Shown: positions 5,885-60,709 of the stretch, piece after piece
Position numbering within the stretch: the first letter of the stretch is position 1
Layout of the letters: every line of letters starts with the position of its first letter
NCBI GenBank assembly: GCA_944323995.1
Contig: CALUUN010000005.1
Location: 1-64,000 of the forward strand
Length of the DNA: 64,000 nucleotides
Direction: 5' to 3'
Source of the DNA: Candidatus Gastranaerophilales bacterium
GTDB lineage: Bacteria > Cyanobacteriota > Vampirovibrionia > Gastranaerophilales > Gastranaerophilaceae
Translations under genes and position numbers: made by a program
Notes under the pieces: generated by a model
What the model was told of the DNA's origin: nothing
Database searches by the model: none
What the model saw: only the letters and a program-made list of their open reading frames with translations

Positions 5885-5913
5885 TTGCCAAAAAACAAAA
5901 AATCTGATATATT
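5885..5913 (+). promoter_or_regulatory. Promoter of the prepilin gene
   Basis: TTGCCA, a 17-base spacer and TATATT lie upstream of the ATG at 5950. TGA immediately precedes the -10 box, giving an extended -10. The good match suggests that the interrupted gene downstream is still transcribed. Confidence 0.7.
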
Positions 5914-5949
5914 AAACATGTAGCACATTAACAAGAAGGAGAAGAAGCA

Positions 5950-6818
5950 ATGTTTAAAAATGTTAAGAAATGTAAAGTCGGGGGGGGGTAAATAATAAGC
6001 CTCTCTATGACAGGGTTTCGGGGGTTTTTGAGAATAAGTCATGTTTTTCGGTAAGTGTCAGGCTGAACGACGCTTTTGATTATTATAAATCCGCAAACTA
6101 TGCATTTACTCTTGCGGAAGTTTTAATAACAATAGGTGTAATCGGTATTGTAGCCGCAATTGCAATTCCGTCATTAATTAATCATTATAACGACAAGGTG
6201 CTTGAAACAAAATACAAAAAGACAAAGAGTATTTTAATCAACGGCTACAAATTAATGATGGCAAAAGATCAGGTATTTGATATATCACAACTGCCATTCA
6301 CAAACGATTTTGATGAATATGTGGCGCAGGCACACAAAGACGTATTCAAAATTTTATCTGATACAAATAGCGGTCTTGATGCGGAAACATTGCCGAAAGA
6401 TTATACGATAGAAGATAACGACAGTCCTTCACAGTTCAATTGGGAAGATGTTCCATATATATTCCAAACTGCAGACGGCACGTTATTTGGTGTAGAGCAA
6501 GATACTGAAAATTCAAATATTTTTTATGTATTCGCAGATCTAAACGCTAATGCCGGGCCGAACGAAGTAAAAAAAGATTTATATAAGTTCAGATTGAGCA
6601 GTAATGCTGCTATTGTCGATGTATCAGATGAATTGGCTGAAATTGCGACTTGTTCTGTTGATAATTTAGATGCTTGTAAAACGCGTGAAGAATGTTATGC
6701 ATTAGGTTCATATAAGAATGAATCAGGAGCATGTCCATATATGAATTGGACTGATGCTGCTGGATGTCGAATACATAACGATCACGGCTTAGAGTGGTAT
6801 GTGGGTTATTGCAGATAG
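5950..6818 (+). CDS. Type IV prepilin-like protein, frame interrupted at a G9 tract
   Basis: The ATG at 5950 has an AAGGAG site and reads MFKNVKKCKVGGG, then stops at 5989 right after nine Gs (5980-5988). In another frame, open from about 5976, a leader runs into a classic prepilin N-terminus, YAFTLAEVLITIGVIGIV, at about 6098, and continues to 6818. One extra G would join the two parts into a 289-residue protein. The mature part has the hydrophobic N-terminal helix of pseudopilins and a Cys-rich C-terminus. The predicted cleavage site has Ala rather than Gly before Phe. The gene could be phase-variable, read through by slippage, a true pseudogene or a sequencing error. The promoter and terminator are intact. 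Confidence 0.75.
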
Positions 6819-6828
6819 AAAGTTTTAG

Positions 6829-6853
6829 GTGCGCCGTCAGGCGCATTTTTTTA
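6829..6853 (+). terminator. Rho-independent terminator of the prepilin gene
   Basis: The perfect stem TGCGCC / GGCGCA has a 4-base GTCA loop and is followed by seven Ts, 11 bases after the prepilin stop. Confidence 0.88.
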
Positions 6854-15434: not shown

Positions 15435-16055
15435 ATGTACGATTATATAAAAGGAATTTTGTCCAATAAAACAAAAAACGGAAAAGGATTTTCAGCAACC
15501 GTTGAAACAGGCGGCGGTGTCGGGTATTTGACGGAAATTACCGCGCGCGATTATTCCGAACTCGGTGCCGTTGATGAGAAAATAAAACTCTATACGGTTT
15601 TAATCCACAGAGAAGATAAAATGAGTTTGTGCGGATTTATAAGACGCGAAGATAGAGATATTTTCAATATTCTCACATCCGTTTCAGGTGTCGGAAGCAA
15701 AATGGCTCTGACGCTTCTGGATGAATTTCCGTCGTCCGAGCTGATAGGTTTTGTTATAGACGGCAACTATAAAGAACTCACAAGAGCAAAAGGTGTCGGG
15801 CCTAAACTTGCGCAAAAAATTATTCTTGAATTGAAAGATAAATTGATGAGTTATAAAGAAACCGAACCCATTCAAATTCAGACGGCAAAAGTTCAGGATT
15901 CACAGGCAATTGAAGACGCACAGACTGTTCTTATATCACTGGGTTATGAAAAAGCGGAAATAAAATCCGCAATGTCAAAGGCTTCTTCACTAATCAGCGA
16001 AAATGCTTCAGCCGAAGAAATTTTAAAAGAAACTTTGAAAATTTTGTCTTTATAA
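15435..16055 (+). CDS. ruvA: Holliday junction DNA helicase subunit RuvA
   Basis: RuvA binds four-way junctions and recruits RuvB for branch migration. The 206-residue protein has the N-terminal OB domain (MYDYIKGILSNKT... LIHREDKMSLCGF). Two helix-hairpin-helix motifs follow (TSVSGVGSKMALTLL and TRAKGVGPKLAQKIILEL), then a flexible linker and domain III, which contacts RuvB. The start lies three bases after dnaA, so the two are probably cotranscribed. Its 3' end overlaps the convergent prepilin peptidase gene by six bases. ruvB and ruvC are not in the window. Confidence 0.95.
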   Translation: MYDYIKGILSNKTKNGKGFSATVETGGGVGYLTEITARDYSELGAVDEKIKLYTVLIHREDKMSLCGFIRREDRDIFNILTSVSGVGSKMALTLLDEFPSSELIGFVIDGNYKELTRAKGVGPKLAQKIILELKDKLMSYKETEPIQIQTAKVQDSQAIEDAQTVLISLGYEKAEIKSAMSKASSLISENASAEEILKETLKILSL

Positions 16056-17042
16056 TAAAAGTATTACAAATCCGGCAAGAATCATTGCCGGCCCGAACGG
16101 CAGATAAGTCCTGTTTTCGGGATTTTTAATCCCGATTAAAATCTCTCTGCATGTAAAAATACCGAGTCCGGCAAGCACAAGTGCACTTGCAATATAGGCT
16201 GTTGAATTTGCAAGCCACCCGAATTGCTGCGCCATAAAAAATGCCGCCGTATAAATTATGAAAGCCGCAAGAGAAAGAACGGTCATCCGGTTTCTGTTGT
16301 CGATTTCTTTTTTTATAAATACCGGCAAAGTTATGATAAATTGAATAATTACACTTAAAATAAGTATACCGATAAGCGCTTTCCATCCGAATACGGAACC
16401 GAGTCCGGCCGCGATGAAGGAATCCCCTTCTCCGAAAGCCCTTGTACCTGCGGCAAGATAACCGAGCCTTGCAACAGCTTCAAGCAGGACGAACCCGATT
16501 ATTATCCCGAGTAAGGAACCCGTCACCGGATTGTTCACAAGCCATTCGGTCGAAAATTGGAACCCGCCGAGGATTGCATAATTTTGATATATATTGTATC
16601 CGGTTGCAATAATTGAATAAACAAGTCCCGCACCCATAAGAAGATATGTATGCATATCAAAAACAACTTTTTCTCTCCAGTCGGTACCGGCTATAACTAT
16701 AAGCAAACTGCCGACAATCCAGCCGAATAATGTATCCCAGCTGTTTCCGTATTCCAAAAACAGGATTGCAAACATTAAACCGGTCAAAAGTTCAACAACA
16801 GGATACTGAATGCTTATTTTTTCACCGCAAAACCCGCATTTGCCTCTCAATAAAATATATGACAACACCGGAATATTATGCCACCATAAAAGTGTCTGTC
16901 CGCATTTTGGACATTTTGATGCAGGATAAACAATTGACTCATTGCTCAAGGCTCTTAAAATTACAACGTTTAAAAAACTTCCGATGCAAAGCCCTATAAT
17001 GAATACAAATAATAATATCGTAAAGAAAAGAACTATAATCAT
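16050..17042 (-). CDS. pilD: Prepilin peptidase / N-methyltransferase (A24)
   Basis: This inner-membrane aspartic protease cleaves prepilin leaders and N-methylates the new N-terminus. The 330 residues start with GLCIGSFLNVVILR. A zinc-type tetracysteine cytoplasmic loop follows (CPKCGQ and CGFCGE), as in methylating PilD. The two catalytic aspartates are in AGTDWREKVVFD and FGEGDSFIAAGLG, across about eight transmembrane helices. The insert between the catalytic regions is longer than usual. It follows the SigF-like gene by seven bases in one operon. Likely substrates in this window are the prepilins at 5950 and 59741. Confidence 0.93.
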   Translation of the reverse strand: MIIVLFFTILLFVFIIGLCIGSFLNVVILRALSNESIVYPASKCPKCGQTLLWWHNIPVLSYILLRGKCGFCGEKISIQYPVVELLTGLMFAILFLEYGNSWDTLFGWIVGSLLIVIAGTDWREKVVFDMHTYLLMGAGLVYSIIATGYNIYQNYAILGGFQFSTEWLVNNPVTGSLLGIIIGFVLLEAVARLGYLAAGTRAFGEGDSFIAAGLGSVFGWKALIGILILSVIIQFIITLPVFIKKEIDNRNRMTVLSLAAFIIYTAAFFMAQQFGWLANSTAYIASALVLAGLGIFTCREILIGIKNPENRTYLPFGPAMILAGFVILLL

Positions 17043-59701: not shown

Positions 59702-59745
59702 GTAACACAAGAGGTTCGTCAATTGACGAACCTCTTTGTGTTATT
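59702..59745. terminator. Strong bidirectional terminator
   Basis: A near-perfect palindrome of AGAGGTTCGTCA / TGACGAACCTCT extends with CACA/TGTG at its base. It lies between the HEAT-like gene and the convergent prepilin gene, whose last codons overlap the right arm. Confidence 0.88.
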
Positions 59746-60709
59746 CTTTACATATTGCTATTCCGTTAGCTGTGTTGTGGTTGCAAAAATAAGTTCCAGG
59801 GCCGCGATAAAATTTACCACAATTTCCATAATAATCATATCTGTGATTATCTCCCACCCACATTATTGGTGAGTTGCTAGGTGCTTCACTAAAAGCGGTC
59901 ATTAACTTATTAAAATGATTCGTCGAATTTTTCAAACTGTAGTATTCATTAAATGTCGGCATGTTTTTAGTGCCATCGCATGCTTTAACCGCGCCCGCCC
60001 AATAGTCTTCATCATATCTACAGCCTTTTTCAATACCATATCTGCCACTTTTGAACATTTCCTGACATTCAGCATAAGTTACAGGTTCAGGATAAAATGG
60101 TTTGCCGTAGCAGATGCCGTCTTTTTCAATGAAGCATTCGTGTTTTAATGAATTAACATTTATAGAGCCGATATCTTTATCTGATGTGTTTGGTTTTGCA
60201 AATCCTGTTACATCGTATAAAATTGCTATGCTTGAAGCTGTTGATGCAAATCTGTTATTATATGGCTCCTGTTTCGTTTGCGGATTGTATGCAATGAGTG
60301 CGTTTACGCCGTTTGCAAATTGTACAGCTACTGTTTCTGTGCCCCAATCTTTTTGACCCATGTCTTCTGCATTTTTTATTTTTTCAATTTCAATGGCTTC
60401 TGAATCTTCATTCCATACTACGGTGTCGGAAAAGCACTCTGTAATATTTTTATTGTTACATATTTTGGTTATTTTTATATATTTTTTTAATTCATTTATA
60501 AAATCTGTCGTAGATGCATATCCTGCAAGTTCTCCTGCTATATTCATCTGATCAGTCGCAACTTTTAGTCTTTTTTCAAAAATATCCTTGGCTGTATCCC
60601 ATGCCTTTTCCTGATAATTTTGTATTAAAGTCGGGATTGTTAATGCCGCCACTATACCTATGATTGCAAGAGTTATCAGTACCTCCGCAAGTGTAAATGC
60701 TTTTTTCAT
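59741..60709 (-). CDS. Type IV prepilin / pseudopilin-like protein
   Basis: The 322-residue protein starts MKKAFTLAEVLITLAIIGIV, the prepilin signature, with Ala before the methylated Phe and Glu at +5. A large Cys-rich C-terminal part (CFIEKDGICYGKPFYPEP, GCRYDEDYWAGAVKACDG) is likely the exposed globular domain. It would be cleaved by the PilD-type peptidase and assembled into a pilus or secretion pseudopilus. GAGGAT precedes the ATG. Its leader is much shorter than that of the prepilin at 5950. The AT-rich region at 60710-60859 upstream shows no other gene. Confidence 0.85.
   Translation of the reverse strand: MKKAFTLAEVLITLAIIGIVAALTIPTLIQNYQEKAWDTAKDIFEKRLKVATDQMNIAGELAGYASTTDFINELKKYIKITKICNNKNITECFSDTVVWNEDSEAIEIEKIKNAEDMGQKDWGTETVAVQFANGVNALIAYNPQTKQEPYNNRFASTASSIAILYDVTGFAKPNTSDKDIGSINVNSLKHECFIEKDGICYGKPFYPEPVTYAECQEMFKSGRYGIEKGCRYDEDYWAGAVKACDGTKNMPTFNEYYSLKNSTNHFNKLMTAFSEAPSNSPIMWVGDNHRYDYYGNCGKFYRGPGTYFCNHNTANGIAICKE

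Follow-up and report, generated by a model that had tools for sequence, protein, structure and literature searches.

A family of prepilin genes with frame-setting poly-G tracts, probably phase-variable, in a Gastranaerophilales genome

In the gonococcal opa genes, CTCTT repeats lie in the part that encodes the signal peptide, while in the pilE system of Neisseria silent copies are moved by gene conversion into one expression site. Poly-G contingency loci are known in Campylobacter and Helicobacter and from hmbR, hpuAB and pilC of Neisseria. The Opa family of Neisseria gonorrhoeae comprises about 11 genes (PMC3745409), and putative pilin-like targets of diversity-generating retroelements have been mentioned, without a switch (PMC6642488). 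Searches of the open-access literature for Gastranaerophilales together with phase variation or with diversity-generating retroelements returned no paper, in line with the first-pass annotation of the DNA studied here, which knew of no poly-G phase variation in this lineage; an earlier description elsewhere is possible. A search for retroelements and Melainabacteria gave one match, which judging from title and abstract is a general study of genome scaling, and the main text of Roux et al. 2021 mentions neither pilins nor the Gastranaerophilales lineage.

Here, we characterize a prepilin locus in a 64,000-nucleotide stretch of a Candidatus Gastranaerophilales genome (the window; contig CALUUN010000005.1, assembly GCA_944323995.1), together with the remainder of that genome (G000) and other genomes of the order. 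In arrangement, the Opa family is the closest known system; in the kind of tract, the nearest are the poly-G loci of Campylobacter and Neisseria. As in the case of Opa, a large dispersed surface-protein family carries a slippage switch, here a proposed one, in each member inside a leader peptide, which here is presumably removed. Unlike the Opa genes, which use a pentamer and encode outer-membrane proteins, the loci described here combine poly-G or poly-C with type IV prepilins and number about 30 to more than 60 copies, with a retroelement overlay in the window's own genome. A homopolymer run sets the frame of surface genes, as in Campylobacter, Helicobacter and Neisseria; whereas the poly-G genomes of those bacteria carry mixed kinds of loci, nearly all loci of one genome here are of one gene kind. 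The system also resembles pilE in holding a silent library of pilin variants but differs from it in that every copy is equipped with a start and a putative switch of its own.

The window leader, a family C leader on the plus strand (MFKNVKKCKVGGG, followed by a stop; 5950 to 5991), starts at an ATG behind a GAAGGAG Shine-Dalgarno sequence (5935 to 5941), runs into nine consecutive Gs (5980 to 5988) and ends directly 3' of them at a TAA (5989 to 5991), exactly as the first-pass annotation had read the letters. Its claim that the prepilin lies intact in another frame lacking a good start of its own also held. That frame opens at 5976, directly behind a stop, and no ATG, GTG or TTG occurs in it before the 237-residue mature body that begins with FTLAEVLI (6105 to 6818, plus strand, with the stop codon TAG at 6816 to 6818). 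Since there is no start of its own, the body cannot be read without a change of frame, non-standard starts aside. The tract is one G short of fusing leader and prepilin: computed translation with G10 yields the joined protein of 289 residues that had been predicted. In other leaders we considered as alternative starts an ATG overlapping the tract in family A at G9 and a GTG in family B at G12, both judged by eye rather than scored and both without a well-placed Shine-Dalgarno sequence; neither type would rescue the window gene.

The signals around the locus are of unequal value. A promoter-like site on the plus strand (TTGCCA-17-TATATT with a TG before the -10 box, 10/12 match; 5885 to 5913), which had been called good, is at chance level when taken alone (5 sites found, 5.6 expected); its combination with a Shine-Dalgarno sequence and an ATG, however, is seen again ahead of paralogous leaders. 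A terminator-like hairpin with a T tail follows the gene on the same strand (6827 to 6848; 2 found, 0.7 expected). The prepilin motif (6093 to 6167, plus strand) reaches 25.7 bits against PF07963 in the genome scan (cut-off 21.2) and 19.4 bits, just below that cut-off, when the short stretch is scanned. The protein has an N-terminal methylation motif with glutamate at +5 followed by a hydrophobic helix, as in class III signals, while residue -1 is alanine where glycine is usual, and the putative leader would measure 52 residues. In the subfamily of the window gene the first 60 residues are conserved and the C-terminus is divergent and cysteine-rich; a fold prediction of the window protein gave a pLDDT of 49 and is not interpretable.

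A copy of the window locus is found on contig C28 (L056, 4067 to 5049), with a 5' part 89% identical, a divergent prepilin body and a 3' flank 95% identical that includes the first 32 codons of folE2; the contig stops within its G8 run. Across congeners, comparison was confined to genomes that have the upstream thioredoxin-like gene beside folE2. Those in which the two genes lie about 180-200 bases apart have no prepilin in between; in G014 a prepilin of 33% identity is located there. Tract length at the window site is thus not comparable across congeners.

Beyond what had been noted, the window gene is one of about 30 such genes. The 1.75-Mb genome contains 31 G runs of at least nine, more than chance would give: Markov models built from its own sequence lead one to expect 0.4-1.5. 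All 31 sit in leaders of the same type, consisting of a Shine-Dalgarno sequence, an ATG, about 9-17 codons and the tract (G9 to G13). Automatic scoring recognized 26 distinct complete tracts as leader-tract-prepilin, with two L031 copies of identical surroundings scored once; one further locus (L010) has a weaker prepilin motif, yet a joined frame of 430 residues, and in case of three tracts the contig ends before the body is visible. The leaders can be grouped into families A (MMNSGFQPKW), B (MAKNADYITSLS), C (MFKNVKKCKV, that of the window), D and E plus singles. Members of a given leader family are joined to different prepilin bodies, so that leader and body act as exchangeable modules.

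PF07963 has 87 matches in the genome, which also encodes a prepilin peptidase (A24_N_bact and Peptidase_A24; 16050 to 17042 of the window, minus strand; the sole Peptidase_A24 match) and four T2SSE-type assembly ATPases. A second prepilin in the window (59741 to 60709, minus strand) has no G tract and serves as an internal control, with an ordinary ATG four residues before its motif. In the fetched part of the genome, tract-less prepilins nearly always have a Shine-Dalgarno-ATG start 4-30 residues before the motif, some lying too near a contig end to be judged, while tract-bearing prepilins have none in the prepilin frame, apart from the in-frame members and two possible but weak starts at GTG or TTG. 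Translation would therefore be switched at the tract, which is no chance lesion in genes that are otherwise ordinary.

Two further observations concern the leaders. Many contigs, namely C3, C4, C9, C11, C14, C25, C26 and C28, end in a tract or no more than about 80-250 bases from one; the repeated leaders fragment the assembly. Between tract and motif, some genes encode peptides derived from repeats (CHCEERSDVAIA, NPLPLGEGG and NAITTQTASARND; L023:13787-14090, L028:6610-6907 and the leader region of L022), as if palindromic repeats had been inserted into a disposable leader.

The out-of-frame bodies are not degenerate, a possibility that the first-pass annotation had set against phase variation. 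Over the first 100 codons, the window gene and L026:4224-4928, which is also out of frame, differ with dN 0.013 and dS 0.284, and all paralog pairs tested, mostly out of frame, gave dN/dS of 0.04-0.4. The out-of-frame bodies are under purifying selection. This bears on the reading that the G tracts merely reflect ordinary frameshifts in decayed gene copies, which would account for most copies being out of frame as assembled. We consider this very improbable, and it is already contradicted by bodies of about 230-360 codons kept open in nearly all copies, by the dN/dS values, by a break that always falls at the G tract and by recurrence of the arrangement across genera. Further, both OFF frames stop early, at a median of 3-8 residues past the tract compared with 16 at random positions, which would fit selection for the OFF state, though shared descent of the leaders could contribute too.

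No more than 21 of the 160 tracts scored were in frame, where one third would be expected at random (binomial p = 4e-9, if tracts are independent). The in-frame members are L019 and the two L031 copies in the window's own genome, 13 in G024, four in G011 and one each in G018 and G062; ON and OFF states thus both occur. Tract lengths differ between copies with nearly the same surroundings: L014 has G12 and L009 G10 with one mismatch in 115 flanking bases, and in G024 a G12 copy is in frame while a G13 copy with three mismatches in 115 flanking bases is out of frame. A uniform G10, which the earlier annotation had regarded as a sign of assembly error, does not occur in related genomes or copies. 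These comparisons cover copies within a genome and species against species, with one genome per species, in draft assemblies that are probably mostly metagenomic and in which the assembler picks one length per tract; a search of viral contigs and phages for within-species copies gave nothing useful. A pure repeat inside or ahead of the open reading frame setting the frame by its length, with lengths that differ among near-identical copies and between orthologues of two species (L140 and L137, described below), is among the marks of contingency genes, and phase variation by slippage is in our view the best explanation of the sequence features, with a probability of about 0.7 that the window gene is one of some 30 such genes.

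The misfit is mostly one-sided within genomes, which simple symmetric slippage does not predict. Tracts are one base short in 18 of 26 cases in the window's own genome (opposite direction in 6), exactly one base short in 25 of 26 in G062, mostly one base short in G011 and one base too long in 46 of 63 in G024. Called length in G024 tracks the frame of the leader class and not a common absolute length (Fisher p = 2.6e-7, an optimistic value owing to related copies). Mostly-OFF populations combined with a biased indel spectrum, programmed slippage or length-calling error could all contribute. Poly-G and poly-C codon runs are both prone to frameshifting, and RNA polymerase or the ribosome might slip on a glycine (GGG) or proline (CCC) run held about one base off frame, giving a fixed low dose of prepilin with the in-frame members as strong variants. 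The one-sidedness, its tracking of frame over several tract lengths and the stop codons just past the tract all fit such programmed slippage. We nevertheless hold it to be unlikely since the direction of misfit differs between genomes, family B leaders of the window's own genome need either +1 or -1, and G000, G011 and G024 each combine in-frame, short and long tracts.

Somewhat less probable still is that most tracts are truly in frame and that sequencing or assembly shifted the called length by one. The near-uniform misfit of G062, seen for both poly-G and poly-C, and the many tracts at contig ends would be accounted for in this way. This, however, would require a shift of -1 in some genomes but of +1 in G024, the same assemblies hold in-frame members, tracts in the middle of other open reading frames in genus g37 are in frame in roughly half of cases, and the early stops suggest that OFF is real. 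As a separate candidate cause of the tracts, general loss of mismatch repair was ruled out: MutS1 (MutS_I) was detected in seven of the eight genomes examined, the window's own among them, a point to be set beside the poly-G loci of Campylobacter, Helicobacter and Neisseria. The first-pass interpretation is thus partly supported: recurrence across the family, in-frame members, length differences and purifying selection speak well for phase variation, with switching itself as the likely process behind these patterns, and the mostly one-directional misfit limits it.

Among 286 genomes of the order, the window's family carries 0-176 tracts per genome and other families 0-6. Tract-bearing prepilin leaders were read in G000, G011, G018, G019, G024 and G062. 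Some leaders of G011 and G062 have poly-C in place of poly-G (L081, L084, L094, L238:12772, L243:14826 and L246:1296 and 7429), and because of these versions the feature belongs to the DNA tract and not to one mRNA sequence. Nearly all tracts of G062 (L239-L256) share the flank tc-G10-c(a/g)...t(t/c)ta(a/g)gc although the leaders differ; the pattern is also found reversed in poly-C leaders and could be a repeated element.

Tracts are found outside prepilins as well. None of the six read in G030 and G035 lies at a prepilin, and in the genus of G124, G247 and G187 tracts lie inside other genes in mixed frames, including a glycosyltransferase and tandem AlgX-like genes; four tandem AlgX-like paralogs of G247 (L267:5738-10837) each have C9 or C10 in coding sense and differ in frame state. 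In the outgroup genus to which G030 and G035 belong, radical-SAM-like orthologues with nearly identical flanks have G11 and are out of frame in one species (L137:1500-1620) but have G10 and are in frame in the other (L140, minus strand, 1477-1596). Two related very large open reading frames of at least 1000 codons in two species (L265:10640 and L271, minus strand, 9712) both have G9 near the N-terminus, out of frame; the one in L265 has no Pfam match.

A further layer is provided by two diversity-generating retroelements in the window's own genome. The first, on contig C19 (L031), comprises a target prepilin that is in frame as assembled, Avd, a template repeat and a reverse transcriptase (RT); the second, on contig C8 (L176), comprises RT, Avd and a template repeat. 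About 25 prepilins have a 3' end that matches one of the two templates. Mismatches fall at template adenines in 248 of 595 and 163 of 349 positions for the two templates (42-47%) and at other template bases in 77 of 1150 and 49 of 975 (5-7%), so that these sister genes show the features of retroelement targets: RT, Avd, template repeat and adenine-directed mismatches. Most of them carry a G tract too, while several do not. The window gene matches neither template; it belongs to a different subfamily and is not a retroelement target.

The C-terminal 150 residues of the C19 target are predicted with high AlphaFold confidence. Foldseek E-values for this region are weak taken alone, and a second-look aligner matched it to Bdellovibrio Bd2740 (Z 9.3, 100 aligned, 3.2 A), invasin InvE (Z 8.3, 93 aligned, 2.3 A), Legionella Lcl (Z 8.0, 97 aligned, 2.7 A), intimin (Z 7.9) and Bordetella phage Mtd (Z 6.5). 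The model is thus placed with C-type-lectin folds, and the domain rewritten by the retroelement is predicted to be lectin-like. RT, Avd, template repeat, adenine-directed variation and a lectin-like variable domain are shared with the DUF1566/C-type-lectin retroelements of Bordetella phage BPP-1 (Mtd) and Treponema (TvpA), and Legionella Lcl is likened to the variable domain for its fold. Unlike in the BPP-1 and TvpA systems, two retroelements serve about 25 prepilin targets here, the majority of which also bear the putative G-tract switch. The retroelement is not universal: 11 of 40 genomes have a related RT, in some cases of only weak similarity, and in G024 a match to its RT region was seen at only two of the first 30 tract loci.

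Under phase variation by slippage, translation would start at the ATG with its Shine-Dalgarno sequence, pass about 9-17 codons and the pure G tract and reach either an early stop (OFF) or a class III prepilin (ON), with the state set by tract length modulo 3. Replication slippage adding or dropping one G would switch single genes. The tract lies in the part presumably cut off by the prepilin peptidase; leader sequence and glycine number should for that reason not matter to the mature pilin, which would also explain the repeat-like peptides that separate tract from motif and in some genes reach about 200 residues. Since retroelement mutagenesis acts on DNA without translation, silent copies could be diversified and displayed on the surface after a later slip. 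It is conceivable, at somewhat less than even odds, that the two layers work together, with the retroelement rewriting tips while misfit silences most copies and slips display a few, resulting in a combinatorial repertoire of pilus tips.

The cell thus seems to store a large repertoire of surface fibres, most of them silent. For annotation, this means that gene callers will miss or truncate tract genes and that assemblies break at them. Gastranaerophilales are nearly uncultured gut bacteria, non-photosynthetic relatives of cyanobacteria, whose encounters with host and phages are largely unknown, and a role of the switched fibres in escaping phages or host immunity may be proposed. As far as the literature found shows, this would be the first variable-surface system reported for Gastranaerophilales and, if tens of prepilins are indeed independently switched and many of them diversified by retroelements, it would rank, for a small genome, with the largest systems dedicated to surface variation.
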